The position numbers and the translations under genes were made by a program. Below the pieces are notes generated by a model, which saw only the letters and a program-made list of their open reading frames with translations, searched no databases and was not told where the DNA came from. Below are positions 39,475-60,129 of a stretch of 64,000 bases of DNA, piece after piece (the stretch's first letter is position 1; each line of letters begins with the position of its first letter). The stretch is taken from positions 124,001 to 188,000 of the forward strand of contig LVBK01000018.1 in assembly GCA_001604385.1 (NCBI GenBank). The letters run 5' to 3'. The stretch is from Spirochaetales bacterium Spiro_09. Its GTDB lineage: Bacteria > Spirochaetota > Spirochaetia > Treponematales > Treponemataceae.

Positions 39475-39494
39475 GTTATCATCTCCTTTTTTCT

Positions 39495-42644: not shown

Positions 42645-44722
42645 ATTGTTATTTCCTTTTTAACAGGTTTCGAGGCACCGTGAACCACCGCACAGGAATG
42701 AGGCGCGGCATCTGATACGATAATCGACCAAAGGCCCCGTGCAAGAGTTGATTCGCCTGACTCCTGTACCACCGAGAAAGCAGTCGCATCAAGCGTAAAT
42801 TCTACAGTCTGCGATGAACCTGCCTGGATTGCAACCCGGGAAAAACCGCGCAAGGAATACAGCGGTTCTTTTAGTGTACGGTCCTTTCGCGAGAGGTAGA
42901 GCTGCACGACTTCTTCAGCATCCCGCGTTCCGGTATTGCGCACCCTTACCCGGACGGTTACGAAAGCATTGTCAGAAACCGTGCCGGAAACCTCCAGTGC
43001 GTCAAAGCGGAACGTTGTATACGACAAACCAAACCCGAACGGCCGGTACGGTTCTTCTTCCATAAAGCGATAGGTTCTTCCCTGCATGGAGTAATCCTCA
43101 TAGGGAGGAAGCTGTCGGGTTGATTGAGGAAAGGTCAAGGGCAAATGACCCGAGGGCACTACATCCCCAAAAATGATATTGGCAACAGCATTACCTCCCT
43201 GTTCGCCGGGATACCAGACAAACAAAACGGCATCGGCAATCTCTTCCGGGATAGCAATGGGACTGCCACCGGTCAGAACCAGCACAATCGGTTTTCCCCG
43301 TTCGCTGAGCGCCTTGAGATATCCGAGCTGCCATTCGGGAAGTTCTATTGTATCGCGGTCGCCTTTACTGTCACTGGCTATCGCGTCGCCTTCTTCCCCT
43401 TCCATCGCATTATCAAGGCCGAAGACCGCGATGACAACATCCGCCTGTTCAGCCATACCGACCGTCCAGCCCATGTTCTTGTTTTCATCATACATCATAC
43501 ATCCCTGATGATAATCCATCGAAATTTGCCATTTTTCGGAAATTTTACCGGTCAAACCCTCAAGAATGGTAACAATACGGGGACTCAAGCCATGATAATT
43601 TCCGGTCAGGGTATGCAGATTCGCGGCACCGGGACCAATCAGAAGAATCTTCTTTTTTGAATCGTCAAGCGGCAGAAGATTGTTCCGGTTTTTCAGCAAT
43701 ACGATAGATTTTTCCGCAGCTTCGCGGGCCAGATCAAGATGTTTTTCACAGCGTATCGTTTCTTTTCCCAGTGTTGCCCAGGGATCAGTGTCGACTGGAT
43801 CAAACTGGCCAAGCCTGAAACGGGTCGAAAAAAGCCGTTCCAGGGAGGTATTGATTGTTTCTTCCGTAACCAACCCTTTTTGTACTGCCGGGACGAGTGC
43901 CGGATAACAGCTTCCACAGTTGAGATCACAACCGGAATTGAGCGCAAGCGCGACGGACTCTTCAACGGTCGACGTCACCTTGTGGTACAGGTGGAAGTCC
44001 CGAATCGCCCAACAATCGGAGACGACATGGCCCTTGAACTGCCAGCGGCCACGAAGAATGTCCTTCAGTAAATACGCGCTTCCGCAACAGGGCTCGCCCA
44101 AAGTCCTGTTATACGCACCCATCACTGTCTCAACTCCGGCCTCCACCAGGGCCTTAAATGCGGGCAGGTAGGTTTCCCATAAATCCTTCTGGTTTACCAC
44201 AGCGTCAAATTCATGCCGTAACCGCTCGGGTCCCGAATGAACGGCATAATGCTTGGCGCATGCGGCAATTTTCAGTCGTTCCGGATGATCCCCCTGCAAG
44301 CCCTGCACACAGGCAACGCCAAGGCGGGCTGTCAGGAAGGGATCCTCTCCATAGGTTTCCTGACCTCGCCCCCAACGGGGATCTCGAAAAATATTGATAT
44401 TGGGAGTCCAATAGGTCAAACCATAGTAGCGGGAGCGAACCCCGCGTTTTGAGGCTTCGTTATACTTTGCGCGGGCTTCATCGGAAATGGCAGTGAAAAC
44501 CTTTTTCATGAATTCTTCATCAAAAATGGCTGCCAAAGCGATTGCCTGGGGGAAAATGGTTGCAACACCCGCGCGGGCAACACCATGCAAACCCTCATTC
44601 CACCAGTTATACTCCGGTATTCCCAGACGCTCTATCGCCGGACTGACATCCGATAATTGAGATACTTTTTCTTCAAGGGTCATTTTGGAGATAAGGGCTT
44701 GTATCCGGTCAGCATTCATCAT
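42641..44722 (-). CDS. GH3 beta-xylosidase/beta-glucosidase
   Basis: This 693-residue cytoplasmic enzyme has an N-terminal barrel (EYNWWNEGLHGVARAG, CAKHYAVHSGPE), the nucleophile aspartate in GHVVSDCWAIRDF, a second alpha/beta domain (LLIGPGAANLHTLTGNY) and a C-terminal fibronectin-like domain. The WWNEGLHGVA start is typical of bacterial xylosidase-type GH3 enzymes. It opens the four-enzyme operon and has a GGAG site. Xylosidase activity is inferred from context; glucosidase activity cannot be excluded. Confidence 0.94.
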   Translation of the reverse strand: MMNADRIQALISKMTLEEKVSQLSDVSPAIERLGIPEYNWWNEGLHGVARAGVATIFPQAIALAAIFDEEFMKKVFTAISDEARAKYNEASKRGVRSRYYGLTYWTPNINIFRDPRWGRGQETYGEDPFLTARLGVACVQGLQGDHPERLKIAACAKHYAVHSGPERLRHEFDAVVNQKDLWETYLPAFKALVEAGVETVMGAYNRTLGEPCCGSAYLLKDILRGRWQFKGHVVSDCWAIRDFHLYHKVTSTVEESVALALNSGCDLNCGSCYPALVPAVQKGLVTEETINTSLERLFSTRFRLGQFDPVDTDPWATLGKETIRCEKHLDLAREAAEKSIVLLKNRNNLLPLDDSKKKILLIGPGAANLHTLTGNYHGLSPRIVTILEGLTGKISEKWQISMDYHQGCMMYDENKNMGWTVGMAEQADVVIAVFGLDNAMEGEEGDAIASDSKGDRDTIELPEWQLGYLKALSERGKPIVLVLTGGSPIAIPEEIADAVLFVWYPGEQGGNAVANIIFGDVVPSGHLPLTFPQSTRQLPPYEDYSMQGRTYRFMEEEPYRPFGFGLSYTTFRFDALEVSGTVSDNAFVTVRVRVRNTGTRDAEEVVQLYLSRKDRTLKEPLYSLRGFSRVAIQAGSSQTVEFTLDATAFSVVQESGESTLARGLWSIIVSDAAPHSCAVVHGASKPVKKEITI

Positions 44723-44865: not shown

Positions 44866-46506
44866 TCAGCGAAGTCCTTTTACCTTGGAAGGATCGACGA
44901 TTGCCCAGAAGGCAGGCTTTGCCTGGAAACGGGTATCGAAGAGCAGGGGGGCATCGGTTCTACCCCGAACGGGGAAGTCATTCAACCAACTGGTATCATC
45001 CGAGGGGCCCCAAATCATGACAAGGTCAAGCTGGCCTTTCTCTGCGGCAGCCTTGTAGACAGCAAAAATATCCTTGTATCGCTGAGCCTGAACAAGAAGA
45101 TCATTGGCAGTGGGCGTCCGTTTTGCATCATTGGCGCTTGCATATATGGACATATCCATTTCCGTGATAACAACCTGAACACCAAGCGAGGCAAACAGAT
45201 CGATAGTTTCCTTAATCTCCGCAACCGAGGGTGCGGTATTGGAAATATGCATCTGGATACCGACTGCATCAACCGGAACCTTTGCAGCGAGCATTTCCTT
45301 TACCAGATTGTACATATCCTGCCGTTTGCGCTTGTCGCTTTCCAGATTGTAGTCATTGATCACAAGCTGTGCATACGGATCGGCTTCACGGGCCCACTTG
45401 AAGGAGTTGAAGATAAATTCCTTACCAAGGATATCGTACCACAGAGAGCCTTCCGCAGCGGTACGGAAACCGCCCTTGTCGGAAAGAACCTCATTAACAA
45501 CGTCATACGATTCTACCTGGCCCTTATAGCGCTTTACGATTGTCTGGATGTGGGTTTTCAAACGCTGATTCAGAAGGTCCTTTGACACGCGCTTGTTGGG
45601 ATCCTTGGGATCCTGCATCAACCATGCGGGTGCCTGCTGGTGCCACTGGAGCGAGTGCCAGCGAACACGCATACCGGTAAGCATACCGAATTCGACGATG
45701 CGGTCAGCATCACGCCACTCAAACTTGCCTTCCTGCGGCTGGATTGCATCCATCTTGTGGGCATTTCCTGCAACCAGGGCATTGAAATGCTTCATGATGA
45801 GCTGGGCTTTCTGCTGCGACGGATCGACTTCATCGGGATTGACTGCTGTACCGATGCTGAACCAGTCATAGAGGGTGTCACCGAGGTTGGGAATATCCAG
45901 CTGTACCTTGGGTTTCAGGGCAGGATCAAGCTTGATAAACTCGATTTCATCTACCCAGAAATCAATTTTATCATTGTCGGTAACCAGATCATCGGCTTTA
46001 TACGGAAGTTCGAAATACACCCAGATATTTTTCTGGGTAGGATCGGCACCGACCGTATATTCGCCCTTTATCTGTGTCCATTCGCCTTTCTTTGCCTGGA
46101 AAGAAAGGATATTCGCATACTTGTGCGCTTCATTGGGGTCCTTGAAAGAACGCTCGACGCTGAAAGTAAACGCCTGGTTTTCAGGGCCCTGGTTGTAATA
46201 TATCCATCCGGAGAATGCATAGACATCTCCCGCTACCGCATTGTCGGTCAACAGGTGAATCGGTCCATGCCAGGTCTTTGTCCGGTTGGTAATCTTGAGA
46301 GACGCAGAGCCGACCTTTTTCACCGCGGTATCGATAATCAGCTTTTCTTCCGAGCCCGGGTGCCCGCGGTGGGCCCAGCCACCAACCTTTCCATCATCAA
46401 AGGAATTCTTGATTACGGTGACATTCTTGAATGTCTGTGCCGACAGGATTCCGCCTGCAGCGACTAACAATGCAAGAAGCACGAACAGCATTTTTGTCTT
46501 TCGCAT
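44866..46506 (-). CDS. Secreted GH10 endo-beta-1,4-xylanase with N-terminal CBM
   Basis: This 546-residue enzyme has a signal peptide (MRKTKMLFVLLALLVAAGGIL). A jelly-roll module of about 160 residues (KNSFDDGKVGGWAHRG, FWVDEIEFIKLDP) of the CBM4/9/22 type precedes the GH10 barrel. ESYDVVNEV carries the acid/base glutamate and VVITEMDMS the nucleophile, so it should be active. It likely cuts xylan at the cell surface or in the medium. It is the last gene of the binding protein-permease-permease operon, 83 bases after the second permease, with GGAGGAG before the ATG and a small hairpin (46528-46541) in the gap. Confidence 0.95.
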   Translation of the reverse strand: MRKTKMLFVLLALLVAAGGILSAQTFKNVTVIKNSFDDGKVGGWAHRGHPGSEEKLIIDTAVKKVGSASLKITNRTKTWHGPIHLLTDNAVAGDVYAFSGWIYYNQGPENQAFTFSVERSFKDPNEAHKYANILSFQAKKGEWTQIKGEYTVGADPTQKNIWVYFELPYKADDLVTDNDKIDFWVDEIEFIKLDPALKPKVQLDIPNLGDTLYDWFSIGTAVNPDEVDPSQQKAQLIMKHFNALVAGNAHKMDAIQPQEGKFEWRDADRIVEFGMLTGMRVRWHSLQWHQQAPAWLMQDPKDPNKRVSKDLLNQRLKTHIQTIVKRYKGQVESYDVVNEVLSDKGGFRTAAEGSLWYDILGKEFIFNSFKWAREADPYAQLVINDYNLESDKRKRQDMYNLVKEMLAAKVPVDAVGIQMHISNTAPSVAEIKETIDLFASLGVQVVITEMDMSIYASANDAKRTPTANDLLVQAQRYKDIFAVYKAAAEKGQLDLVMIWGPSDDTSWLNDFPVRGRTDAPLLFDTRFQAKPAFWAIVDPSKVKGLR

Positions 46507-46589: not shown

Positions 46590-47516
46590 TTATTCTTTAA
46601 CGCCACCGACATTCAAACCGGTAACAAAGTGGCGCTGCATGAACGGATACACGACCAGAATGGGTGTCGCGGCAACAATAGTGATTGCCGCACGGATACT
46701 GACCGGAGTGACAACGCTCGAACTGTAGTCCTGCCCCATTCCCATCGCACCTACGTCGGCAGCGGTTTTTGACTGCTGCTGGCTGGCCGAAAGGAACTTC
46801 ATCAATTCATACTGCAGTGTGCTCAGTTCCTGTCGTCCGGAAGCAAATATCATGGTGTCAAACCACTGGTTCCAGGCATTGACCGCGACAAAGAGCGCGA
46901 TGGTTGCCAAAACAGGCTTGCACAGGGGAAGCATTATCCGGAAGAAAATCTTGAATTCACCGGCGCCATCGATACGGGCCGATTCCACCAAACTGTCGGG
47001 GATACTGTTCATGTATGTCCGTACAACGATGAAGTTGAATGCACTGACAAGGCCAGGCACGATGTACACCGCAAACTTGTTGATAAGGCCGAGGCTTCTG
47101 ATCAAAAAGTAGTACGGGATGAGACCCGCGCCGATATACATTGACAGAACCAGGATGAAAGTAAATTGCCTGCGCAAGACAAATTCTTTTCGTCCCAGAG
47201 AGTAGGCAAGCATACTCGTCAAAAAAACGCTCAATACAGTCTGAATAAGCGTACGCGCAACCGAAATGAAGAACGCATTATAGATAGTACCTGAAGCAAA
47301 AACAGCCTTGTAGTTCTGCCAGGTAAACCGGCGTGGCCATATGGTCAAGCCACCCCGAACGGTGTCGGTTGCATCATTGAAAGAAACGACTATGGTATTC
47401 CAGAACGGATACAGGGTAATGAACATCAGGAACACAAGAAACAGTGTATTTACCGTATGGAACACCCGATCCTCGAGCCGTGCCCGAAAGTAATAATTTG
47501 CGTATTTGCTTGTCAT
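46590..47516 (-). CDS. Carbohydrate ABC permease, LplC/YtcP type
   Basis: This 308-residue inner-membrane permease has six helices and the coupling motif ARIDGAGEFKIFFRIMLPLCKP near residues 195-215. Its start, FLVFLMFITLYPFWNTIVVSFNDA, is typical of the YtcP/LplC group used for complex oligosaccharides such as aldouronates. The ATG overlaps the stop of the partner permease by four bases. No ATPase is encoded nearby; these systems usually borrow a shared MsmX-type ATPase. Confidence 0.94.
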   Translation of the reverse strand: MTSKYANYYFRARLEDRVFHTVNTLFLVFLMFITLYPFWNTIVVSFNDATDTVRGGLTIWPRRFTWQNYKAVFASGTIYNAFFISVARTLIQTVLSVFLTSMLAYSLGRKEFVLRRQFTFILVLSMYIGAGLIPYYFLIRSLGLINKFAVYIVPGLVSAFNFIVVRTYMNSIPDSLVESARIDGAGEFKIFFRIMLPLCKPVLATIALFVAVNAWNQWFDTMIFASGRQELSTLQYELMKFLSASQQQSKTAADVGAMGMGQDYSSSVVTPVSIRAAITIVAATPILVVYPFMQRHFVTGLNVGGVKE

Positions 47517-48457
47517 ACCAGTCGCTCCTCTCCCATTCGCTTGGCCAGCCAGTTGGCAAAAAACAGCATGCTGATATTGACTACGTTCTTGAACATACCG
47601 GCCGCGGTAGCAAGCGAGAAATTCCCCAGGTTCAAACCATACGACAGGACGTAAATATCGATTGTGTCGGACACATCCTGGATCAAACCGTTTCGTAGCA
47701 GATATTGCAACTCAAAACCCGCATCGAGTATTCGGCCGATGCTCATAATCAGCAATATCATGACCGTCGACTTGATACCGGGAAGCGTTATATGCCACAT
47801 TTTCTGGTAGCGATGGCAGCCATCGATCTCTGCCGCCTCGTAGAGAGTCGGATCAATACCGACAATTGCCGCCAGGTAGATAATGGTATTCCATCCTACC
47901 TCCTTCCATACATACGTTCCGCCGACTATACCCCAAAAATATTTGGGCTCGCTCAACCAGAGTACCGGCTCCTCGATCAAACCCAGATACATGAGAAAAT
48001 CATTGATGGCACCATTCTCGGTCGACAACATCGACGCAACAAGTCCGGTAACAATAACCCATGACAGGAAGTGCGGAAGATACGAAACAGTCTGTACCAC
48101 CCGCTTGAACAGGACTTTCTTGACCTCATTCAACATAAGGGCAAGAACAATGGCAGTCACATACCCCAGGGTCATATTGATAAAACTCATGGCAAGCGTA
48201 TTACGCAAAACCTTGAGAAAGTTATCATCGGTAAAAAGAAACAGGAACCATTTGATCCCGACCCATTGCTGTTTGGCAAAGGATAATGCGGGTTTGTAGT
48301 TCTGGAACGCCATTGTCCAGCCCCAAAGAGGCACATAGGCGAAAACAATCACATACAAAACCAGCGGTGCGGACATGAAAAACAGCTGCCGCTGTGCAAA
48401 GAGGTTCTCCAGAAAGGTTTTTGGCCGGTTTTGTATCCGGATCTCGTTTGTCGTCAT
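47513..48457 (-). CDS. Carbohydrate ABC permease, LplB/YteP type
   Basis: This protein of about 314 residues with six helices begins RQLFFMSAPLVLYVIVFAYVPLWGW, the LplB/YteP signature. The coupling loop AAEIDGCHRYQKMWHITLPGIK is standard. It forms the import channel with the LplC-type protein. The ATG at 48457 is preferred because GGAG lies nine bases upstream; one 15 bases earlier lacks a site. It is separated from the binding-protein gene by 140 bases with a hairpin. Confidence 0.94.
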   Translation of the reverse strand: MTTNEIRIQNRPKTFLENLFAQRQLFFMSAPLVLYVIVFAYVPLWGWTMAFQNYKPALSFAKQQWVGIKWFLFLFTDDNFLKVLRNTLAMSFINMTLGYVTAIVLALMLNEVKKVLFKRVVQTVSYLPHFLSWVIVTGLVASMLSTENGAINDFLMYLGLIEEPVLWLSEPKYFWGIVGGTYVWKEVGWNTIIYLAAIVGIDPTLYEAAEIDGCHRYQKMWHITLPGIKSTVMILLIMSIGRILDAGFELQYLLRNGLIQDVSDTIDIYVLSYGLNLGNFSLATAAGMFKNVVNISMLFFANWLAKRMGEERLV

Positions 48458-48554
48458 ACTAAAAAGCTCCATTAGGCTACCCCGATACTACGTTGCGTAT
48501 CGGGGTCAACATCAAAAGTAAAAGGAACAAATCCAGCAAGGATTATTGAAAGCG

Positions 48555-48597: not shown

Positions 48598-50262
48598 TCA
48601 GTTCTTCGGCGACCACTTGCGGATTCGTTCGTCGATATGGTCCTGAACGTAAGCTTCGTATTCTTTCAGTCCAACCTTGGAAAGTTCGGTCACATACTCA
48701 TTCCACAGGCGTTCGAACTGATTCGGGCGGGCAAGAATAATGCGGGGAAGATACTTTCTGTACAAGTCTTCCGCTTTTTTCCATGCAATCTGGGCAGGAG
48801 ATCCGTCAGGAGGTGTAATCTGCCAGGCAGGGAACCATACCGGGTTGTCGGGAGGATTGGGATCCATCAGCTCTGCATAGCTGGAAACGCCATAGGCTTC
48901 GAGAACCTCACGGTCTTCGGGACGCTGTGCTGCGAGAGCTTCGGCGGGAACTTCGCCGATAGAGGTCGGCCAGCCGTCAGAGAACGCACCGGTCAGCTTG
49001 GGAGCCTGATTAAACCACTGGTCGCCCTTGTTTCTGAGCTTCCATACACCGTCTTCCTGCTGTTCCCGCTGTTCGGGCGTGCGGTACGGATTTCCGTCAG
49101 CATCCCACTGCCAGTCTTCACCCTCAAATCCCCAGTGGAACACCCGCTGGGCTTCCTCCGAAATCTGAGCTTCCATAAACTTGATAATCCGGACGGGATC
49201 TTTTGCCTTGATACTGATACCGTACCCGCGCTGGATATTCGGAAGCGGTTTGTTGCGGTAACGGGGAGTAATGCTTTCATCGAATACGATCGGAAGCGGC
49301 ATCATGGTTCTGTTGTACATGTCCTGGTTGCGCAAAGCGGTTCCGGCATCCTGGAACTGCCAGTTCTGGTCATGGATTCCCAGAACACGTCCGGAAGAAA
49401 GCTTTGCCATATACTGGTCATAGTTGTCGACGAAACAGGTTCTGTCGATAATGCCCTTGGCGTTCATTTCGTTCAGTTTCTTGAACCAGCGCTTGGAAAT
49501 ATCCTTGTCAAGGAAGACTTCATATTTGTAGGTTTGAGGATTGACCGTTCCGTTTCCGTCGTTGGGATAACCGGCCAGGAAGTTCGGCGGGTTAATCAGA
49601 CAGAACGCGCGCCAGTCATAGGTCAAAATAGTATAGCCGATGGTCGGCATGCCGTTTACGGTCGGATATTTTTCCTTGTACTTCATGATGATATCGAAAT
49701 ACTCATCCATGGTGGTTATTTTCGGATATCCGAATTCCTTCATGACTTCTTTCTGGATCCACAGAGCGGAATCACCATACCAGGTGGAGGTGTCGCGGTT
49801 GTCCACAATACCCCAGGCAGGAAGGGTATAGACCTTTCCGTCCGGCTCCTTCATCTTTTCCCAGGCGCTCGCATAGTGCTTTTTCAGGTTCGGTCCATAT
49901 TTATCGATCAGGTCATCAAGAGGTATGAGCGCTCCGGCTTCATAAAATTTAGGACTGTCGACATTAAGAATGTCGGGGTAGTCACCTGAAGCGATCATGA
50001 CACCTATCTTTTGATCCTTGACGCCGACAGCGATGTCCCAGGTAAAGGTGACATTGAACTCATCCTTCATCCATTTGAAGATCTTGTTGTCAGCAGGGGG
50101 GGCCTGATGGTTCTGCACCGAGAACACGGATAATTCTATCGGATAATTGTCGTCTTCTGACGAAACGGCACCGGCAGATCCTGACTTTTGTGAGCAGGAC
50201 ACGGCAAGTACCGCAAGAAACGCCAGCAAAACAAGCATTGCTTTGTTCAAGCCATTTCTCAT
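48598..50262 (-). CDS. Oligosaccharide-binding lipoprotein of ABC transporter (LplA/YtcQ type)
   Basis: This 554-residue extracellular solute-binding protein has the lipobox LAVSC after a hydrophobic signal (AMLVLLAFLAVLAV). The mature start EDDNYPIELSVFSVQNHQAPP and the later GDYPDILNVDSPKFYEAGALIPLDDLIDKYG are the LplA/YtcQ family pattern. These large binding proteins take up oligosaccharides. The co-transcribed GH10 gene, with GH67 next door, suggests xylo- or aldouronic oligosaccharides. GGAGG precedes the ATG. Confidence 0.94.
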   Translation of the reverse strand: MRNGLNKAMLVLLAFLAVLAVSCSQKSGSAGAVSSEDDNYPIELSVFSVQNHQAPPADNKIFKWMKDEFNVTFTWDIAVGVKDQKIGVMIASGDYPDILNVDSPKFYEAGALIPLDDLIDKYGPNLKKHYASAWEKMKEPDGKVYTLPAWGIVDNRDTSTWYGDSALWIQKEVMKEFGYPKITTMDEYFDIIMKYKEKYPTVNGMPTIGYTILTYDWRAFCLINPPNFLAGYPNDGNGTVNPQTYKYEVFLDKDISKRWFKKLNEMNAKGIIDRTCFVDNYDQYMAKLSSGRVLGIHDQNWQFQDAGTALRNQDMYNRTMMPLPIVFDESITPRYRNKPLPNIQRGYGISIKAKDPVRIIKFMEAQISEEAQRVFHWGFEGEDWQWDADGNPYRTPEQREQQEDGVWKLRNKGDQWFNQAPKLTGAFSDGWPTSIGEVPAEALAAQRPEDREVLEAYGVSSYAELMDPNPPDNPVWFPAWQITPPDGSPAQIAWKKAEDLYRKYLPRIILARPNQFERLWNEYVTELSKVGLKEYEAYVQDHIDERIRKWSPKN

Positions 50263-50367: not shown

Positions 50368-51033
50368 TCAGTTATTGACCCATTCAATGGCAAGCTGCCG
50401 AAGCTCCTGGGAAGAGCTGCAGTGAAGTTTCAATTTGATATGTTCCTTGTGAGTGTCAATTGTTTTGGTGCTCAGGTTCAACTTGGCCGCAATTTCAACC
50501 GTTCCCAGACCCTTTCCGATCAGGGTAAAAATCTGTAATTGCCGATCCGAAAGCTTACTGACCGAAGCGAACCAGTCCTTGCCCTCTTTCATGGCGTTGC
50601 CACCGGTCATATAGTCAAACAGCCGTTCGCGCTCGGTATCACTCAGCCAGATTTTACCCGACATGACCGTTTTTATCGCGTCAATCACTTTGGTTCCGGC
50701 TTCTTCTTTCATGATATACCCGCGGGCCCCTGCACGAAGCGCCCGTTCGGCATAATAGCGCTCATCATGCATGGAGAGAACCAGAATAACCAGATCGGCA
50801 ACCCGGGCTTTCAATTCTTTAATCAGGGAAAGACCGTCTTCATCTCCAAGATTTAAATCAACAACTGCCAGGTCAGGAGATGTTTTTTCAAGCAGATCGA
50901 GCGCTTCGGAGGAATTTCTGGCTTCTCCGACAACCTCATATGATGACTGTGCGTCAATCAACTGGGCAAGTCCCTTGCTGAACAACGGATGATCTTCTAT
51001 CAATATGACCTTGGTAACCGGCATAGGGTGCAT
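50368..51033 (-). CDS. NarL/LuxR-type response regulator
   Basis: This protein of about 221 residues has a receiver (VILIEDHPLFSKGL, phospho-acceptor Asp59 in LAVVDLNLGD, Lys in YIMKEEAGTKV) and a C-terminal LuxR helix-turn-helix (LSDRQLQIFTLIGKGLGTVEIAAKLNLSTKTIDTHKEHIKLKL). No kinase is adjacent on the same strand. The HisKA_3-type kinase at 57949-60129 is the type that normally pairs with NarL regulators, so it is the likely partner. The gene is directly upstream of the transporter operon and probably controls it. Start is uncertain (ATG 51033 or 51024). Confidence 0.93.
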   Translation of the reverse strand: MHPMPVTKVILIEDHPLFSKGLAQLIDAQSSYEVVGEARNSSEALDLLEKTSPDLAVVDLNLGDEDGLSLIKELKARVADLVILVLSMHDERYYAERALRAGARGYIMKEEAGTKVIDAIKTVMSGKIWLSDTERERLFDYMTGGNAMKEGKDWFASVSKLSDRQLQIFTLIGKGLGTVEIAAKLNLSTKTIDTHKEHIKLKLHCSSSQELRQLAIEWVNN

Positions 51034-51112
51034 ACTACCATAAAATAAACAGACGGCATAGTACAAATTCCTTATTTCTGAGCGAAGCCTCTTGTTCTAG
51101 AATGGTCACAAC

Positions 51113-52114
51113 ATGCACATGTCACATAATGAAACAGGGCTTAAGGATGCTTGGTCCCATGCGTTTAGCGTCGGGGCCGCAGTCAGTTCCGAATGCCTCG
51201 CGCAAAAAGAATCAGTGCAGTTACTCACCACACATTTTTCGTCGCTGACCCCGGAGTCCGCGATGAAGATGAGCAAAATTTGGCCATTCCCGCACCGGAA
51301 ATACACGGCGGAAGCGGACCGGATTTCCGGCTTTGCAAAAGAACATCGGTATCTTCTTCGGGGACATGCCTTCCTGGACAGCCTGGCTACACCGGAATGG
51401 GTATTTGAGCACGATCCGGTAAAACGGCGCGATCTCCTTGAGAACTTCATACAATATATGTGCGAACGGTATGGGGATGCAGTGTATGCCTGGGATGTCA
51501 TCAACAATGCGGTATCCACAACACGGGAATCGGGACTATCCGGACGATGGTTCGAGAACGACGATGAATCATGCATCGATTTCGCTTTCCGGGCCGCACA
51601 CGCCGCTTCTGCGCAGACAAAGCTTTTCTTGAACGAAAGCAACAACATTACCGGTAAAAAGAAAGAGATGACGCTGTCGCTATTGCGACGCATGCTGGAT
51701 CGGGGCGTTCCAATCGATGGCATCGGACTCCATGGTCACTGGAATATAGATTATCCCGATGAATGCACACTCCGGACAGCCATAGAGGACTATGCGGCCC
51801 TCGGCCTTGACATCGAAATTACCCAGCTTGATATATCGGCGTATAAACGGGAAGAAGAAGAAAACGATATGGAATCCATTCCGGAAGAACGGGAACTGGC
51901 ACAGGCACATCAGTACCGGACAATCTTCAGAATCGCATCCGACTATCCTGCGGTTAAAAATATAACCACCTGGGGAATCGCTGACAATGTACACTGGATC
52001 GGTCATTCACCGGCGCGAACTAAAAGCAACCGGGCTCTGCTTTTTAATCCCGATTTTTCTGCAAAGCCGCTTGTCCATGTCCTTATTGACATGGGACTAA
52101 ACCTGACCTACTGA
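51113..52114 (+). CDS. GH10-fold protein lacking both catalytic glutamates (pseudo-xylanase)
   Basis: This 333-residue protein has no signal peptide and spans a whole GH10 barrel. Recognisable landmarks are TPESAMKM, LLRGHAFLDS, YAWDVINNAV, GVPIDGIGLHGHWNIDYP, EITQLDIS and TTWGIADNVHW. The acid/base glutamate of WDVVNE is Asn132 (codon AAT, 51506-51508) and the nucleophile of ITELD is Gln238 (codon CAG, 51824-51826). The usual W-H pair after RGHTLV is Asp89-Ser90, and the EN of TxEN is Glu48-Ser49. It should therefore not cleave xylan but may still bind xylo-oligosaccharide. It reads into the soluble kinase and response-regulator genes, 75 bases away, which suggests a sensor role. No frameshift or stop disturbs it, so it is maintained. 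Confidence 0.9.
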   Translation: MHMSHNETGLKDAWSHAFSVGAAVSSECLAQKESVQLLTTHFSSLTPESAMKMSKIWPFPHRKYTAEADRISGFAKEHRYLLRGHAFLDSLATPEWVFEHDPVKRRDLLENFIQYMCERYGDAVYAWDVINNAVSTTRESGLSGRWFENDDESCIDFAFRAAHAASAQTKLFLNESNNITGKKKEMTLSLLRRMLDRGVPIDGIGLHGHWNIDYPDECTLRTAIEDYAALGLDIEITQLDISAYKREEEENDMESIPEERELAQAHQYRTIFRIASDYPAVKNITTWGIADNVHWIGHSPARTKSNRALLFNPDFSAKPLVHVLIDMGLNLTY

Positions 52115-52189: not shown

Positions 52190-53926
52190 ATGAAAGACAT
52201 TGACCGCCCCTTTCTGCATGCCCTCCACGAACAAATCCTCCATGCTGTCATAAAGGAAGGAGCAAAATACAACCTCAAGCATCTTCTGTCCGTATTACGA
52301 ACTCATATAGAGGCAGATACGGCCTGCCTTTTCTTTGTAGAAGAAAATCAGATACTGACAATGATCGTCGACAGCCAGGATGCTGCAGGAATTCCGTTAT
52401 TAGTCGGTACCGATCTCGTAACGCTTCATACAGAAAGAATTCCCGAAAAAACAATAGTGCGGCATTCCGAGAGTTTCGGTATATACGGAAACAAAAAATT
52501 TGCATCCACGCTGACAGTACCAGTCCGAAAGAAGGGGCAACTGGTAGCAGTCATGGAATTCGGCAAGGACACCGACGATATCGATTCGGATAAAGCCGTC
52601 GAAACCGCTAAAGCGATCGCATATCTTCATACGGTATTGCTTTCAGCACACGAAGATACCCGCCGCTTCGAGGCGAACAGAAAACTGCGTGCCCTGTTTT
52701 CACAAACTGAACGCCAATTCCGGATACTCCTTGAAAACACACGGGACATTATTCTTTCCTTTACCCCGGACGGAGCACTCCGATCGATAAACGAAATTGG
52801 CAAGAATCTCTTGTGCGCCCGGCATGACATTGAATCATGCAAGTTTAACCCGGTCAGCCCCGATTTATCGTTTATTGCCAATTTGCTCAAGAACGGCACT
52901 CCGGCAAGCGATCTGGAAGTAGTGGTTGAGGATGACAACAGACAACCCCGGTTTCTGCTTGCCTCATTTTCTCCCGAAATGGACATACACAATAATCTTG
53001 TGCTCATTCACGCTATTTGCAAGGACATCACCGACAGGGTCGAGTCGCAAAAGACTCTATGGCAGGCAAATTATGAACTTTCAAAAGCACAGGAGCTTCT
53101 GGAAAAAACGCAACTACAGATGATTCAGCAGGAAAAGCTCGCCTCCATTGGCCAGCTTGCGGCGGGTATCGCTCACGAGATCAATAATCCGCTTGGTTTC
53201 ATCATGAGTAATTATGAAACGCTCAAGGAATACCTTGATAAAATGACCCGGTATATTACTGAACTTGAACAACATGTTCCGGATTCTTCCCAACTGCAGA
53301 ACCGGACAAGGATCATGAAAATACTCCAGAGAGAGGAACAGCTAATCAAGGATACCGACGAGGGCTTTTCCCGCATCTCGAAGATTATTCAGAGTCTGAA
53401 GGATTTTTCCCGGACAGAAACAAGAGGCGTTCTTTCATCGGTTCATATCGAGCAGTTACTGGAAGATACGCTGATTGTGTCACGCAACAGCTGGAAATAT
53501 GTTGCAGAGATTAGTACAGATTACCGCCTTGATCAGACAGTGGAGGCGTATGGAGACCTCCTGAATCAGGTTTTCATGAATATCATCGTCAATGCGGCAC
53601 AGGCCATAGCAAGCCAGGGACGTGATACGCCGGGCAGTATCCGGATTACGACAGACCGTGACGGTGATATGGCCCTGATTATTATAGAGGATGACGGGCC
53701 AGGACTGAGCAGAGAGGTCATCCGGAGGCTATTCGACCCGTTCTTTACTACAAAACCCGTTGGCAAGGGAACAGGCCTGGGGTTAAGCGTCTCGTATGAT
53801 ATCATAGTAAAAAAACATAACGGGGATATTCTTGCCGAAAACCGGATTGAGGGAGGAGCGCGCTTTATCATCCGCATACCGTTTAATCAAACAAGTCAAC
53901 TGGAAACCACGGGGGAAGAAGTATGA
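52190..53926 (+). CDS. Soluble GAF-PAS sensor histidine kinase
   Basis: This 578-residue cytoplasmic kinase has no membrane helix. A GAF-like domain fills residues 1-155 (HLLSVLRTHIEADTACLFFV) and a PAS domain about 170-290 (ERQFRILLENTRDIILSFTPDG). A coiled segment leads to the DHp box AAGIAHEINNPLGF with His329. The ATPase follows (NIIVNAAQAIASQG, EDDGPGLSREV, GTGLGLSVSYDIIV). The response-regulator gene overlaps its stop by four bases. The pseudo-xylanase gene lies just upstream, so the kinase may read a ligand-bound state of that protein. No ribosome site is evident. Confidence 0.93.
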   Translation: MKDIDRPFLHALHEQILHAVIKEGAKYNLKHLLSVLRTHIEADTACLFFVEENQILTMIVDSQDAAGIPLLVGTDLVTLHTERIPEKTIVRHSESFGIYGNKKFASTLTVPVRKKGQLVAVMEFGKDTDDIDSDKAVETAKAIAYLHTVLLSAHEDTRRFEANRKLRALFSQTERQFRILLENTRDIILSFTPDGALRSINEIGKNLLCARHDIESCKFNPVSPDLSFIANLLKNGTPASDLEVVVEDDNRQPRFLLASFSPEMDIHNNLVLIHAICKDITDRVESQKTLWQANYELSKAQELLEKTQLQMIQQEKLASIGQLAAGIAHEINNPLGFIMSNYETLKEYLDKMTRYITELEQHVPDSSQLQNRTRIMKILQREEQLIKDTDEGFSRISKIIQSLKDFSRTETRGVLSSVHIEQLLEDTLIVSRNSWKYVAEISTDYRLDQTVEAYGDLLNQVFMNIIVNAAQAIASQGRDTPGSIRITTDRDGDMALIIIEDDGPGLSREVIRRLFDPFFTTKPVGKGTGLGLSVSYDIIVKKHNGDILAENRIEGGARFIIRIPFNQTSQLETTGEEV

Positions 53927-55092
53927 GTGACTTTATTTTATTCGTTGATGACGAGGAAAAGATTTTATTATCCCTGGAAAGGGAGCTCGAAGAATGGATT
54001 GAAGAGAGAAATCTGCAATTCAAAAGTGCCGAAGGCGTGAATGCCGCGCTGGAGATCCTGGAAACAGAGGCAGATCGCTGCCAGGCAATTGTATCCGACC
54101 TGAAAATGCCGAACAGGAAAGGATCGGAACTGCTCCTCGAAGTTGCCAGGAAGTGGCCACACATTGGAACGATATTATTGACCGGGTTTTCCGATATGGA
54201 TGAAATAAAAGACTGTATTCGGGCCGGGATATTGTCTTTTCTGCAAAAACCCTGGAACAGAGAAATTCTTCGTGCGGAATTGAGCCGGGTTATCGAGCTG
54301 ACGCGACTGAGAAAAGAGCACAGCGAGTATTTTTTACGGCTTCAGAATGATTTCGAATGGACAAGGAAACTGCATAAGGAATTACTTTTAAATAACACAC
54401 TCCCTGAAAATCCGGGTACCCTGGACATCGGGACCAAACCGGCTGCAGGATCTCTTGATTGCGGTGGAGACCTGATACTATCGCTTTTCGCACCGGATGG
54501 CTCGCTGTATCTGTGTTTCGGCTCCCTTGCGGTAACCGGAGTGAAAGGAACCTATCTTGGCCTAAAGATCCGCGAGGCCATATTCTTGCTGGCCAAAGAA
54601 CTTCCTGAAGGCAGCGAACCCGACATATTTTTGTCCCGCGTAAATTCCTACATATACCGCAACCTTCCCGAACTTCCGGAAAACTCGCTCTCCCTCAGTG
54701 TATTTCGGTTTACCGCACACGCTGATTTTTTTTCCTGCTCACATTCCGGGGGCGAGCACTTCGCCGTTACCGACGCTTCACGCCTTGCAATTTACAGTCT
54801 TCCCTCCCCATCTATCGGCATTCAGGACGATCTTCCGTTCATCCTCAAACGCTATGCGTTCAGAAAGACCTCTACCCTGATTTTGTTTTCACGGTTATTG
54901 CTCAAATCGCCGCTCACTGCAGAGGCCTGTACAGCATCGTTAACCGAATTCGCAGAACGGCAGGAGAGCGCACAGGAGTTGACAAACCGTATCACGGAAG
55001 GCAGGCAGCTTCCCTTTGACGCAACCGTTGTCCTCTATCGCCTGGCCGAAACTGCATCCGATAATTCACCGACTATAGCGAAACACGCATAA
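53923..55092 (+). CDS. Response regulator with SpoIIE-like, degenerate phosphatase output domain
   Basis: This 389-residue protein has a receiver domain (FILFVDDEEKILL, phospho-acceptor Asp59 in AIVSDLKMPN, Lys109 in FLQKPW), a helical linker and a C-terminal PP2C/SpoIIE-type domain. LDCGGDLILSLFAPDGSLYLC resembles the GGD metal site (181-183). The next motif, usually DVSGKG, reads SLAVTGVKG (201-209) and lacks its aspartate; the NAGH site reads HSGGEH. It may be a weak or inactive phosphatase acting by binding, for example on an anti-sigma antagonist type partner. Translation is coupled to the kinase. There is no DNA-binding domain. Confidence 0.82.
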   Translation: MSDFILFVDDEEKILLSLERELEEWIEERNLQFKSAEGVNAALEILETEADRCQAIVSDLKMPNRKGSELLLEVARKWPHIGTILLTGFSDMDEIKDCIRAGILSFLQKPWNREILRAELSRVIELTRLRKEHSEYFLRLQNDFEWTRKLHKELLLNNTLPENPGTLDIGTKPAAGSLDCGGDLILSLFAPDGSLYLCFGSLAVTGVKGTYLGLKIREAIFLLAKELPEGSEPDIFLSRVNSYIYRNLPELPENSLSLSVFRFTAHADFFSCSHSGGEHFAVTDASRLAIYSLPSPSIGIQDDLPFILKRYAFRKTSTLILFSRLLLKSPLTAEACTASLTEFAERQESAQELTNRITEGRQLPFDATVVLYRLAETASDNSPTIAKHA

Positions 55093-55186: not shown

Positions 55187-57859
55187 TCAGTCAATAAGCA
55201 TCATGACACCAAGAACACTCATGTCCTGGTAGCCCATATTGTTGTCGCTTACCCAGTTGCGGATACCCGAGCGGGTACCGGATGCATCGGCCTCGTTCAC
55301 CTGGGCGTCAAAACCGATGAGGGCTTTGGCGGCAGGCTTGAGGTGGGTAAAGGGAACGGCCACTTCCACAACATAGCCGCCGGGGAAGATTCGGGAGCGT
55401 GAACGGAAGAGTTCTTCGCTTCCGCCATTGAATGAAGCCTTGTTTCGGAAACTGACACGGTACTGGGCATCATCTTCTTCGTAAGTCTTCGTTTTACCGT
55501 TATTCTGGTCAATGAAGACTTCGATTGAATCCTGTTCCCAGGGATCGCGGGCATTATCGTTCAAGAGGGCATCCTGTACTTCAAACAGAACATACAGGTA
55601 TTCATCATCCCACAGGGCACGGAAGGTAGATCCGTCGAGCGTATAACCTTGCGTCTTCACATTGAGCGGAATCTTTTCTGCGGTGTCCCACAGTTTTTCG
55701 ATCTGTCCGTCGATGCGGGGTGTTCCCCTCTTGGCATAGGTTACCGGAGGCAGAATCTTGAAGGTGACTGTACCATAATTTTCGGTAACCTTGTCCTGTG
55801 TGTGATCAAGATCGTTCCAGCTGTAGAAATTCTTGCCATCGGTTACGCGAAGATCGAAACCGATTTTTGAGGCAACACGACCGGCAAACGGAATATCGAC
55901 AAGCGCGGTCCAGGTTTCACCGGTATCGGCCACGGCCTTGGAACGGGGAACCTTGATTACCTTGACGTTCGGTCCGACCTTGGCTTCCTTGAGGTTCTTC
56001 GGCTCGATGAAGATGGTAACTTCGTCAGAAGCATCCTTGGTTTTGTCGACTACGTTGACCAGAGCCTGGATGGTTGTGTCAGTCCAGACAAGTTTGTATG
56101 TGCCATACACCTTTCCTGCCCGGTCTTCAATAGTGCGGGCAGTAACAAAGTCCCACTTTGTATCATCGGGAGTTTTAATCAGCTCTTTGGTAGAGATAAC
56201 TTCACCCTGCTTGATGCCAATGGGAAGCTTGCTCGGATCTACGATTGCCCAATAAGCCGGTTTGGCACGTAAATCTTTACCGAAGAGCAACGGATAGTTT
56301 GTGCGGCCGGCAACAGGGAAGTTGTCAAGCCAGGTACCCATGTCTGCAAGACCCCACAGGACAACCATCTGAAGATTGCCTGCATCGGCTTCTTCCTGGA
56401 ACATCTGGAACAGGGCGCGATACTTTCCTGCCTGATCGAGAAGAACCTCGCGGGTTGCTTCTTTCTTGGCTTCATTACCGCTTGCGTAGACCGACATATC
56501 CAGCTCGGTGATCTGTACCTTCACGCCGAGTTCGGCAAAACGGCGAATAGCGGTACGCATATCGCTGACAGTCGGATGACCAATGCTGATGTGGGCCTGA
56601 AGACCGACACCATGAACGGGTACACCCTGTTCAAGCAGACGCTTAACCAGATTGTACAAACCGTCCTGCTTGGCTCCGGAGAACTCGATACTGTAATCGT
56701 TGATAAACAACAGCGCATTCGGGTCGGCTTCATGTGCCCACTTGAATGCGTTGGCGATATATTCCTCGCTTCCTGCAATTTGCAGATAGCGTGAATTCCG
56801 CAAGGCGCCGTCCTCGCCGATAACCTCATTAACTACGTCCCAGCTGTGAATCTTTCCCTTATAGCGGCTGACGATAGTCTTGATATGCTTTTCAAGGCGG
56901 GCATACAGAACTTCCTTGCTTGCGATTTTGGTCGGATCGGCCGGATCGCGGGTCAGCCATGCAGGATACTGGTTATGCCACAGAAGGGTGTGTCCGCGGG
57001 CAAGTTTCTTGTTTTTTGCGGCATAGTTAACCAGGGCATCGGCCTTGTCGAAGACAAACTTGCCTTCTTCGGGCTGCATATAGGCCTGCTTCATGTCATT
57101 TTCATGAACATATACATTGAAATGACGAAGGAGACCATGTTTTTCTCCGCGGGGATTGATATCGTCGACATTGATCGCGGCACCAATTGGCAGATTCTTG
57201 AAGAAGGTATGGAATTCGGGAATATCCTTCTCTACCATAGGGGGAGCTGCCGGAGGAATCCGGGTAATCTCGAGGCGGTCAATATAGAATGAAAGAAGAT
57301 CGTTCGGAGTTGCCGCATCGTCGTTCTTGTACGGGGTTTCAATATAAAAACTGAGCGGGCTGGGTTCCTTGGAAACTGGCACCGAATAGTTGGTTACGAT
57401 GTTACCCCAGTCACCCTTGGCAATACGGTCACTGCCTATTGTGGCGTAGGTTGCATCGATGCCGTCAACGATTCGCTGCATGCTCAGGTTGAAACTCTGG
57501 GTTTCAGGGCCTTCCTGGAACATAACCCAAACAGAAATTTTATACGATTCACCGGGAAGCATGACCTCGCTGACATCAACAATGGGTCCGTTCCAGGTAG
57601 ACTTTCGTCCGCTTACGAACAGGGACTTGGTTCCTGACAGGGCAGCTTTATCCGAAACCTCCACGGTCTCGCGTCCCCGGGCGCCCCATCCGCCAACACC
57701 GGCTTCAAAATCATCCAGCAGAACAACTTTCTCTGTCAGATCAATTTCCGGCGCTTTTTCTTTCTTGCCTCCCGCCCACAAGGAACTTGTGGCTGCGAGC
57801 AGCATGAAAACACACAGTAAAGCAACAGACCGCACATGACGGCTTGCGTTTGTTTTCAT
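55187..57859 (-). CDS. Secreted multidomain GH10 xylanase (CBM-GH10-CBM9-CBM9)
   Basis: This 890-residue exported enzyme has a signal peptide (VALLCVFMLLAATSSLWAGG). An N-terminal CBM22-like module (LDDFEAGVGGWGARGRETVE) is followed by the GH10 barrel of about residues 215-540, with acid/base Glu in HSWDVVNEV and nucleophile in VQITELDMS. Two C-terminal CBM9-type modules follow; the second contains GTPRIDGQIEKLWDTAEKIP and FRALWDDEYLYVLFEVQD. RGHTLLWHNQYPAW is intact. It should attack insoluble xylan outside the cell. AGGAGG precedes the ATG. It is a single gene, divergent from the LacI-like kinase that may control it. Confidence 0.96.
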   Translation of the reverse strand: MKTNASRHVRSVALLCVFMLLAATSSLWAGGKKEKAPEIDLTEKVVLLDDFEAGVGGWGARGRETVEVSDKAALSGTKSLFVSGRKSTWNGPIVDVSEVMLPGESYKISVWVMFQEGPETQSFNLSMQRIVDGIDATYATIGSDRIAKGDWGNIVTNYSVPVSKEPSPLSFYIETPYKNDDAATPNDLLSFYIDRLEITRIPPAAPPMVEKDIPEFHTFFKNLPIGAAINVDDINPRGEKHGLLRHFNVYVHENDMKQAYMQPEEGKFVFDKADALVNYAAKNKKLARGHTLLWHNQYPAWLTRDPADPTKIASKEVLYARLEKHIKTIVSRYKGKIHSWDVVNEVIGEDGALRNSRYLQIAGSEEYIANAFKWAHEADPNALLFINDYSIEFSGAKQDGLYNLVKRLLEQGVPVHGVGLQAHISIGHPTVSDMRTAIRRFAELGVKVQITELDMSVYASGNEAKKEATREVLLDQAGKYRALFQMFQEEADAGNLQMVVLWGLADMGTWLDNFPVAGRTNYPLLFGKDLRAKPAYWAIVDPSKLPIGIKQGEVISTKELIKTPDDTKWDFVTARTIEDRAGKVYGTYKLVWTDTTIQALVNVVDKTKDASDEVTIFIEPKNLKEAKVGPNVKVIKVPRSKAVADTGETWTALVDIPFAGRVASKIGFDLRVTDGKNFYSWNDLDHTQDKVTENYGTVTFKILPPVTYAKRGTPRIDGQIEKLWDTAEKIPLNVKTQGYTLDGSTFRALWDDEYLYVLFEVQDALLNDNARDPWEQDSIEVFIDQNNGKTKTYEEDDAQYRVSFRNKASFNGGSEELFRSRSRIFPGGYVVEVAVPFTHLKPAAKALIGFDAQVNEADASGTRSGIRNWVSDNNMGYQDMSVLGVMMLID

Positions 57860-57948: not shown

Positions 57949-60129
57949 ATGGGACTGCGTAAACGCATCGCGCTCTACCTGAACAACCTTGACGAGGAAT
58001 ACCAGATATCGGTCTACAAGGGAATCCGGGATGAAGCCAGGAGCCTGAATATAGACCTTGTCTGCATACAGGGCGAGACGCTCAACCAATTTATGGCAGG
58101 GACGCCAAGCCCCTTTCCCTCCCGTCATTTTATGAACATGGACGGGGTTCTCCTGTTGTCATCAGTTATAGTTGACCGCGCAGGCCAGATTTTCTTGCCG
58201 AACATCCGTGACCATTTTCACAATATTCCCTGTGTCTCCATCGGTTCCCGGTTATTCGACTTTCCCTCCATAATCATCAAATCGCGGGTTTCGATGGAAC
58301 AGTTGATGCACCACCTGATTATCGATCACGGGTACCGCAAATTCCTGTATATCGGCGGACCGGCAAACCACCGGGACAATATGGTTCGCGAACACGTGTT
58401 CCGCCGTTCAATCCACACCTATCAGCCAAAATTCCCTTCATTGCACGGCGATGTCGCGAATGGCGGCTTCAATGACGCCTCGGGGGCGTCCATTATTCAC
58501 GAGTACATGATGAAACATCCTGACGAGCCCCTGGATGCAGTGGTTGCCGCCAATGACAACATGGCTCTTGGAGCCCTCTATGAATTGAAGGACTGCACCG
58601 ATCCCCGCTGGAAACAGTGCGCGGTTACCGGCTTCGATGACATTCCGCAGGCACGGCTCGAGGTTCCCGCCTTGACAACCGTCAGGCAACCGCTTTCCAG
58701 CCTGGGAAGACAAGCCCTCCAGGCCCTCCTTGATGTCCTTGATGGCAGCCGGGTTTCAGGCGTCATCCACACCGACTCGGAGTTTGTCGTACGTAATTCC
58801 TGCGGATGCGGAAGCGAATGGGACCTGGAAAAGGAAGCAGAAACGAGAACACAGCTTAAAAGCAGGCTGGAAGCCATCCAGTACAAGGCAGCAAAATCCG
58901 AACAATATTTGCGGAATATAAGCTTCTTCGGCCAACACCTCATCACCATCCATACCATCGAGGACATGCTTGCAACACTTCCCGACTATCTGACCAGTCT
59001 CGAGGTATACACCTTTCATTTAATAGCCTTTCCGCGACAGGAACCGGTATTCCCCTCCGAGGGAGTCCTACTTTACCAGCGCGTCAACGGAACAGATTCC
59101 TTTTGGCCGGATATGAATAATGTTGTCGTATTGAAAGATTATTTCGCCTCCCTCGATTCGGGTGAAAGCGAGCGCAGCAACGAACGCATGCTCTACCATC
59201 TGCGTTCCGGAAAGGACTTTCTTGGCCTTATCTATTATTACGCGGAAGACTTTGCCCAGCCGCTTATCTGCAGCTCGGCGGCCTTTTTGAGCAATACGCT
59301 CAAGCGGTTGCGAATTCTGGAAGAAGAAAAAGAGAGATCCCGGCATCTCGAGAAGGAAGTAGAACACCGCACACGGGATCTGGTTGACACAAACAAAAAG
59401 CTCAAGCACGAGGCACGCAGGCGAATCGAAGTAGAGGCAGAGGTATTGCGTATCAGCGAGCTTGAACGGCTGCGGTTCAGTCTGGATTTGCATGATGATA
59501 TTTGTCAGCGCCTTGCCGGAATTTCCATGTACTGCAAGAGCCTGGCAACGGTTCCGGTAAACGGCGAAACTATCGGCGAAATTGCTACAATGATCGATGA
59601 AACACTGCATTTGACCCGCCAGTATGCCCATGACTCGTTTCCGATGGAGCTGGATACCCTGGGCTTGCAGGATGCACTGCAAAGTCTTTGTCATGATGTC
59701 GAAAAAAACGCCGCCTGCATTTGTAATTATTCCTGGCAGGTGAGCGGTCCCTCCCCGCTTACCGGCCCCCAGGAGATCAATGTCTACCGGATTATTCAGG
59801 AAGCGCTCCAAAATGTCATTAAGCATTCAAAGGCAAGCATGGTCGATATTACCGTCATCCGGGAAAGCGATGCCTTTGTGATCAGGGTGAAGGACAATGG
59901 AGTGGGAGCGCCCCATCCCGGCGACAAACCGTATAGCTACATGGAAGATGGCGGATTACCGCAAAAGCGGAACAGACGCGAAGGCCTGGGGATGAGATCG
60001 ATGCAATACCGCGCCCATCAGCTTGGGGCGGAGTATATTTTCAAATCGACGCCGGGGAAGGGCACCCTGGTCGAGATTCGTATACCGCTCAAGGAAAATC
60101 CGGAATCCCTGCTGGGCCATATTCAATAG
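57949..60129 (+). CDS. LacI-like ligand domain fused to soluble histidine kinase
   Basis: This 726-residue protein has no signal peptide or membrane helix. Residues 1-290 form a periplasmic-binding-protein fold of the LacI/GalR type (VVAANDNMALGALYELKD, AVTGFDDIPQARLEVPALTTVRQP), without the usual DNA-binding headpiece. A middle region (about 300-470) looks like a GAF-type domain; then comes a coiled coil (SRHLEKEVEHRTRDLVDTNK). The kinase core is of the HisKA_3 class, with His515 in LDLHDDICQRLAG and an ATPase (NVYRIIQEALQNVIKHSKAS, GLGMRSMQYRAHQLGA). It probably senses a cytoplasmic sugar and signals to a NarL-type regulator. It diverges from the GH10 gene. Confidence 0.93.
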   Translation: MGLRKRIALYLNNLDEEYQISVYKGIRDEARSLNIDLVCIQGETLNQFMAGTPSPFPSRHFMNMDGVLLLSSVIVDRAGQIFLPNIRDHFHNIPCVSIGSRLFDFPSIIIKSRVSMEQLMHHLIIDHGYRKFLYIGGPANHRDNMVREHVFRRSIHTYQPKFPSLHGDVANGGFNDASGASIIHEYMMKHPDEPLDAVVAANDNMALGALYELKDCTDPRWKQCAVTGFDDIPQARLEVPALTTVRQPLSSLGRQALQALLDVLDGSRVSGVIHTDSEFVVRNSCGCGSEWDLEKEAETRTQLKSRLEAIQYKAAKSEQYLRNISFFGQHLITIHTIEDMLATLPDYLTSLEVYTFHLIAFPRQEPVFPSEGVLLYQRVNGTDSFWPDMNNVVVLKDYFASLDSGESERSNERMLYHLRSGKDFLGLIYYYAEDFAQPLICSSAAFLSNTLKRLRILEEEKERSRHLEKEVEHRTRDLVDTNKKLKHEARRRIEVEAEVLRISELERLRFSLDLHDDICQRLAGISMYCKSLATVPVNGETIGEIATMIDETLHLTRQYAHDSFPMELDTLGLQDALQSLCHDVEKNAACICNYSWQVSGPSPLTGPQEINVYRIIQEALQNVIKHSKASMVDITVIRESDAFVIRVKDNGVGAPHPGDKPYSYMEDGGLPQKRNRREGLGMRSMQYRAHQLGAEYIFKSTPGKGTLVEIRIPLKENPESLLGHIQ

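Follow-up and report, generated by a model that had tools for sequence, protein, structure and literature searches.

An inactivated intracellular xylanase, apparently retained as a protein, in a spirochaete xylan locus

The window analyzed here (the whole stretch of 64,000 nucleotides from Spirochaetales bacterium Spiro_09) carries a xylan locus with a GH10 protein, pGH10, that has lost both catalytic glutamates. Judged from its sequence, pGH10 is almost certainly an inactivated intracellular xylanase, the loss of activity itself being deduced from the residues: its nearest intact relatives are of the IXT6 type, and two of them are encoded at the corresponding position of the same xylan locus. 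It is one member of a real but small set of such inactivated enzymes in spirochaete genomes. The protein probably retains a non-catalytic function, and it may plausibly act in the LacI-kinase system. The best explanation, held with about equal belief and doubt, is that a former IXT6-type enzyme has been kept as a non-catalytic accessory of the LacI-kinase/LuxR system.

The GH10 protein and its active site

The gene and the two altered catalytic codons are as follows.

51113..52114, plus strand: pGH10, dead GH10 protein of 333 aa, predicted cytoplasmic (ORF, Pfam, alignment, AF2, hydropathy)
51506..51508, plus strand: codon 132, Asn at the position of the acid/base Glu (sequence and alignment)
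51824..51826, plus strand: codon 238, Gln at the position of the nucleophile Glu (sequence and alignment)

The reading frame is whole, as the first-pass annotation had stated, with an ATG start and no internal stop. Pfam Glyco_hydro_10 (PF00331) covers residues 10-324 with 213.9 bits against a cut-off of 22.1. The substitutions read from the sequence at first pass were confirmed by alignment with intact GH10s: WDVINNA stands for WDVLNEV (Asn132), ITQLD for FTEVD (Gln238), and RGHAFLDS for RGHTxxWH, in which the Trp-His pair has become Asp89-Ser90. Neither of the two glutamates that mark an active GH10 xylanase is therefore present. No signal peptide or membrane segment was found in pGH10 by hydropathy (maximum KD19 0.83, compared with 2.24 for a secreted control), and the protein is single-domain and signal-free, as in the IXT6-type intracellular GH10 lineage. 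The proposal of a cytoplasmic GH10 pseudo-enzyme is thus upheld as a prediction from residues, hydropathy and apparent constraint on the protein.

The AF2 model of pGH10 is a complete (beta/alpha)8 barrel with eight strands (mean pLDDT 90.2), and eight strands were also modeled for the most degenerate orthologue, that of SZUA-438 (pLDDT 82.3); the alignments behind both models contain intact relatives, which favors the barrel. The pGH10 model matches IXT6 with a TM of 0.91, and Foldseek ranks IXT6 and CbXyn10B first. Eight GH10 genes were found in the genome, and pGH10 alone lacks the two glutamates. Another of them (L008:1264-2427, C60; 387 aa) is the second without an obvious signal peptide; its glutamates are intact, and it might serve as the intracellular xylanase now.

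Dead orthologues and intact relatives

Among 145 genomes of the family, the best non-self match of pGH10 is a protein of SZUA-416 (G051) with only 35% identity. This copy reads WDVLEGI and LTSLS at the catalytic sites, while that of SZUA-438 (G065) has Asp at both positions and a shortened C-terminal part; the catalytic pairs of the three dead orthologues are different in each, namely N/Q in the window, G/S in SZUA-416 and D/D in SZUA-438. Both SZUA genomes are MAGs of the same genus as the window, whose own assembly is 88% complete in 83 contigs. Dead orthologues are present in three of the 12 genomes of this genus; a profile built from them gives these three 482-580 bits and every other GH10 there no more than 209. 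All three score as GH10 well above the cut-off, so family models alone would mislead here.

With the dead-copy profile, 390 genomes of the order yielded nine proteins of another spirochaete family at 301-352 bits; the next matches reached at most 221. These nine relatives are of the intracellular type, with no signal peptides by eye. We had expected dead homologues in this second family, and the expectation was wrong: the catalytic motifs are intact, except for an ambiguous base at the acid/base codon of G318 and an internal TAG in G151. The latter codon (L171:2685-3686) falls in frame at the Trp of RGHxxxWH and represents either a sequencing error or another inactivation. When one of the nine was compared with the PDB, IXT6 was the best match (1n82, 2q8x). 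Extension to the class (394 genomes, 11-row profile) gave at best 342 bits outside these groups, compared with 478 for the window protein, and the loci of those outside matches are all E/E where both positions are readable. No matches were returned by a single-protein search of the genome contig collection with pGH10 as the query.

In a 21-row tree, pGH10 grouped with intact intracellular GH10s of spirochaetes to the exclusion of other GH10s (99/99), and the grouping was recovered in a 103-row tree (SH-aLRT 93). Geobacillus IXT6 is absent from these trees, and its link to pGH10 comes from the PDB searches. Monophyly of the dead copies was not rejected by the AU test (p 0.28); catalytic loss may have occurred once or more than once.

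Loss of both glutamates is rare among the GH10 sequences collected. A profile search of the fetched loci returned 130 GH10 rows, best matches of searches within one class rather than a census of GH10, and 13 that did not span both catalytic positions were dropped. At the catalytic pair 111 of the remaining 117 are E/E (101 of 106 after removal of rows sharing a 50-aa block). The exceptions are the three dead orthologues, the only rows without both glutamates, together with one X/E row caused by an ambiguous base and two E/G rows that represent a single G375 gene fetched twice. That gene, a CBM-GH10 xylanase (L165:11606-13240; the same gene in L183), retains its acid/base residue and has Gly for the nucleophile Glu (VLITGMDIS), a change of the same kind as in the engineered glycosynthase IXT6 E241G (PDB 9fkh); seen on one MAG contig, it may be either an artifact or a genuine natural variant.

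The extent of damage also differs among the three copies. For 111 columns invariant in eight intact copies, 72 are kept in the window protein, 60 in SZUA-416 and 38 in SZUA-438 (39, 51 and 73, respectively, are changed or gapped). We further considered 15 residues which, with their roles, we take to make up the GH10 active-site motifs, an assumed list not drawn from a structure file. On this list the window copy has lost eight and kept seven, including two Trp, whereas SZUA-416 has lost 12 and kept three, and SZUA-438 has lost 14 and kept one. Beyond the glutamates, damage in the window copy was seen at Asp89, Ser90, Ser176 and His207. The excess of active-site loss over loss at other invariant columns is weak in the window (p 0.10) and clearer in the siblings (p 0.005 and 0.011). 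Only four residues (A86, A162, L239, D326) occur in all of the dead copies and in none of the intact ones.

The xylan locus and its neighborhood in relatives

The genes surrounding pGH10 are as follows.

37909..44722, minus strand: GH43, GH8, GH67 and GH3 genes of the xylan locus (Pfam)
44866..46506, minus strand: secreted CBM4_9-GH10 xylanase, catalytic Glu intact (Pfam, residues)
46590..48472, minus strand: two ABC permease genes, BPD_transp_1 (Pfam)
48598..50262, minus strand: substrate-binding lipoprotein of an ABC transporter, assigned by eye, with no Pfam match at E 0.001
50368..51066, minus strand: LuxR-type response regulator (Response_reg and GerE), divergent from pGH10, a shared neighbor (Pfam, relatives)
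52190..53926, plus strand: histidine kinase whose N-terminal parts weakly resemble GAF and PAS domains; of the loci compared, only the window has it in this slot (Pfam, relatives)
53923..55092, plus strand: response regulator paired with the GAF-PAS kinase, weak SpoIIE/PP2C-like C-terminus, E 0.016 (Pfam)
55187..57859, minus strand: secreted CBM4_9-GH10-CBM9 xylanase, catalytic Glu intact, homologue in the same place in G375 and MS499-28 (Pfam, residues)
57949..60129, plus strand: histidine kinase with a LacI/Peripla_BP_3 domain, HisKA_3 and HATPase_c (Pfam, hydropathy, relatives)

The GH43, GH8, GH67 and GH3 genes lack signal peptides by eye. Given these, the secreted xylanases and the ABC importer, imported xylo-oligosaccharides could presumably be degraded without an intracellular GH10. 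Promoter-like sites (six, compared with 9.1, sd 2.8) and terminator-like sites (10, compared with 8.0, sd 3.3) were about as frequent as in shuffled sequence.

The first-pass annotation had linked pGH10 to the soluble GAF-PAS kinase and response regulator that follow it. The arrangement itself stands: pGH10 and the kinase are 75 bp apart on the same strand, the kinase and the regulator overlap by 4 bp, and no membrane segment was found in the kinase by hydropathy. The domain names are less secure, the matches lying below the Pfam cut-offs (PAS_9, E 2.2e-4; GAF, E 0.021), and the SpoIIE/PP2C-like C-terminal part of the regulator is possibly degenerate. The LuxR regulator upstream and the LacI-domain kinase downstream had no place in that annotation. 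This second kinase, 5.8 kb from pGH10 with three genes between, has no HTH match in Pfam and no membrane segment by hydropathy; relatives of it at E 1e-40 or better were found in 47 of 145 genomes of the family, and our open-access literature search found no description of an HTH-less LacI-domain/HisKA_3 kinase paired with a LuxR regulator.

It is this second pair that is conserved around the GH10 gene. Both G375 (Spirochaetaceae bacterium Nl494_bin56) and Spirochaetia bacterium MS499-28 have the LuxR regulator (minus), an intact intracellular GH10 (plus), a homologue of the CBM-GH10-CBM9 xylanase (minus) and the LacI kinase (plus), and the window repeats this order, with the GAF-PAS pair in addition directly behind its dead GH10. 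A homologue of the substrate-binding protein adjoins the LuxR regulator in G375. SZUA-416 and SZUA-438 have the LuxR regulator (minus), the dead GH10 (plus) and the LacI kinase (plus), with gaps of 96 and 42 bp, respectively, between the last two. The dead gene thus lies between LuxR regulator and LacI kinase in three of three cases, and a slot common to intact and dead copies ties pGH10 to this pair.

A search with the LacI kinase as the query gave 98 loci, of which the best 80 were kept (GTDB; the window's own record is not among them). The LuxR regulator has a match on the same piece in 65 of these 80 (read from the table); the other 15 have none, and there the slot cannot be judged. An intracellular-type GH10 occupies the slot in four of the best 80 (intact in L174 and L183, dead in L177 and L179), and a secreted-type GH10 does so in L204 and L251. 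In G038 (L110:2341-3858; the same contig in L197) we considered whether a dead GH10 was hidden in the slot gap; this was rejected, and two ORFs resembling polysaccharide deacetylases by eye lie there between LuxR regulator and LacI kinase. Matches to the window glycosidases or binding protein were read from the table for only 26 of the best 80, so that control of xylan genes by the LacI-kinase pair is itself a deduction; in the window the pair is likely to be involved in xylan use.

The GAF-PAS pair behaves differently. Neither of its two proteins was the best match anywhere in the best 80 of 98 LacI-kinase loci, nor in another set of 43 loci (which overlaps the 80 in organisms and in which L070 and L071 are not counted as LacI-kinase loci), and the pair is absent from the slot in SZUA-416 and SZUA-438. 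The closest relative of its regulator (61% identity) belongs to G002 of the same genus, where the surrounding genes are unrelated and the 19.5 kb retrieved show no GH10 match. There (L283:8170-10200) the regulator gene is complete, encoding 377 aa, and the kinase is apparently broken, in two frames with the middle missing. More distant pairs of this type in G034, G065 and G044 also showed no GH10 match on the fetched 18, 7.2 and 19 kb. The GAF-PAS kinase next to pGH10 is most likely a peculiarity of this genome, and the claim that it is the partner of pGH10 is not supported. The broader expectation of a kinase beside dead homologues fared better: a conserved kinase is there, although it is the LacI-domain kinase, the GAF-PAS one being found only in the window. 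It is thus not the case that such homologues are never found near kinases; they adjoin a different one.

Constraint on the protein

The first alternative to a retained function is a decaying relic, a dispensable xylanase gene that drifts and whose frame is open by chance or because the loss is recent. Several observations fit it. At a LacI-kinase identity of 60-61% (alignment without G002 and G027), intact GH10s are 71% identical and dead ones 34%; each catalytic position carries a different residue in each copy, the SZUA-438 copy is shortened, and the GH43, GH8, GH67 and GH3 genes could replace the enzyme. In Geobacillus, the available text of PMC4194401 describes xynA2, a gene of the same type, as absent from at least one strain, with XynB1 possibly covering for it.

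Other observations argue against drift. All three frames are free of stops despite the number of invariant columns changed or gapped. In neutral simulations in which the observed share of invariant columns was replaced, the three genes stayed stop-free in two, four and one of 400 runs, and in 29, 63 and 22 of 400 with half that share, as if half the changes had followed the loss; these runs started from modern genes and did not count frameshifts. For the dead branches, omega = 1 was rejected by a branch codon model (2 x dlnL 135), in a test that averages over the time before the loss. The value of omega itself (0.049) is untrustworthy because dS is saturated there, with one branch at the bound; the sibling copies also have an odd letter make-up. 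The codon analyses excluded G318, which has ambiguous bases, and G151, which has an internal TAG.

Conservation appears to have been redistributed, its loss being uneven along the protein. At residues 9-24 and 266-280 the dead copies are as conserved as the intact ones (identity at 9-24 of 0.67 and 0.65, respectively), whereas residues 169-183 and 281-312, comprising strands 5 and 8 and the stretches after them, fall from 0.83-0.88 in intact to 0.19-0.23 in dead copies (at 281-300, from 0.87 to 0.23). Conservation at the C-terminus is unremarkable, 18% of alignment segments of this kind being as high. Columnwise, conservation in dead and intact copies correlates at 0.16. The strongest shift in constraint had a permutation p of 0.0022 over 12 residues, 0.0026 over 16 and 0.026 over 20, and was not significant over 25 (p 0.105). 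Third codon positions at residues 9-24 differ by 0.56-0.75. This places the constraint on the protein rather than the DNA, and regulatory DNA was rejected as the source of the N-terminal conservation.

On this sequence evidence, constraint appears to have moved and not just been lowered: it has been lost at the cleft but persists at the N-terminus and along some of the outer helices. According to the available text of PMC3962208, terminal contacts stabilize GH10 barrels, and the N-terminal constraint may therefore only keep the barrel stable. Neutral decay fits these data badly and is an unlikely reading; pGH10 is apparently under protein-level constraint, and we consider it probable that it is still a useful protein.

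Use of the old sugar-binding cleft

Descent from an oligosaccharide-binding enzyme, with part of the cleft kept in the window copy, would suit a helper that holds or buffers cytosolic xylo-oligosaccharides, or presents them to the LacI kinase, rather than a regulator of proteins. Some precedent comes from the anti-sigma factor RsgI6 of Clostridium thermocellum, whose C-terminal GH10 domain has very low activity and binds xylan in the available account (PMC4711584). Such a helper is nevertheless improbable for pGH10. The stretches around strands 5 and 8 have lost most of the conservation that intact copies show there. With 12 and 14 of the 15 residues on our assumed motif list lost from the siblings, xylo-oligosaccharide sensing through the old active site, which had been proposed at first pass on the window copy, is weakened there and unlikely as a shared function.

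The same proposal in full has pGH10 regulate the neighboring GAF-PAS kinase, with the old cleft as its binding site for xylo-oligosaccharides. It draws on the closeness of the two genes, on the motif residues still present in the window copy and on the crystallization with xyloheptaose of a GH10 variant carrying Gln in place of both Glu (title of PDB 5ofk); given that variant, the window protein may still bind sugar. We regard the full proposal as highly improbable: no locus other than the window showed the pairing, neither the nearest relative of the kinase/regulator pair nor three more distant ones showed a GH10 match on the pieces fetched around them, and the active site is damaged in the window copy and nearly gone in the siblings. 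Another catalytic activity through other residues of the barrel has very little chance of being right, since, although the barrel is predicted to be kept and the Asp pair of SZUA-438 might in principle supply an acid and a base, the dead copies share no residue at either position and only one of their four shared dead-specific residues is polar.

A possible role with the LacI kinase

The remaining explanation, an accessory of the LacI-kinase/LuxR system, would start from an IXT6-type intracellular xylanase whose gene, in this xylan locus, was flanked by those of the LuxR regulator and the LacI kinase. Within the genus of the window catalysis would then have been lost, with both glutamates gone and, in the siblings, nearly all active-site motif residues. 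The enzyme may have become dispensable and its product been kept for contacts with the sensory pair, leaving a folded, non-catalytic cytosolic protein whose N-terminal and outer-helix surface would serve the two-component system. For example, pGH10 could bind the LacI kinase and bias its activity, in a direction and with a partner that are conjectural, and the system would presumably control xylan genes, its putative targets. That pGH10 is useful through this system has, on sequence and gene order, an even chance of being correct. We put forward only tentatively the more specific form, in which pGH10 would be a dedicated cytosolic regulatory subunit of the LacI-domain system, contacting the kinase through the N-terminal/outer-helix face while the LacI domain recognizes the sugar.

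Several facts stand against an accessory role. Most LacI kinases do without an intracellular-type GH10: 76 of 80 loci (best 80 of 98) show none in the slot, 15 of the 80 being those without a LuxR match on the piece. The orthologues are also only three, they change fast, and they share few dead-specific residues. In the window, moreover, three genes and 5.8 kb separate pGH10 from the LacI kinase.

Comparison with known systems

IXT6/XynA2 of Geobacillus (1n82, 2q8x) has the same fold, length and cytoplasmic location as pGH10, and the spirochaete orthologues of this type (G375, MS499-28) share in addition the place in the xylan locus; unlike them, pGH10 has lost its two catalytic Glu together with part of the remaining active site. 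LacI-domain (Peripla_BP_3) kinase/LuxR pairs are known from Treponema and related spirochaetes, and the window locus holds one, differing from most such loci by the GH10 in its slot. No cytosolic single-domain GH10 pseudo-enzyme tied to a sensor kinase was found in the open-access literature, where RsgI6 comes nearest. The likeness, putative for pGH10, is a GH10 domain adapted to binding or signaling rather than hydrolysis. As the available text describes it, RsgI6 is membrane-anchored with an extracellular sensing part fused to an anti-sigma domain (PMC4711584), whereas pGH10 is single-domain and cytosolic and has neither a membrane anchor nor an anti-sigma domain. Pseudo-enzymes of plant cell wall degradation in herbivorous beetles are likewise hydrolases kept without catalysis; these are other organisms, and there, in the available text (PMC6549527), duplication in multigene families is involved, while pGH10 is a single copy in a regulatory locus.

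If the accessory role is true, a pathway enzyme would have been turned into part of its own control circuit. Dead and intact orthologues lie in the same slot of related loci, which makes this step from enzyme to non-enzyme directly testable.
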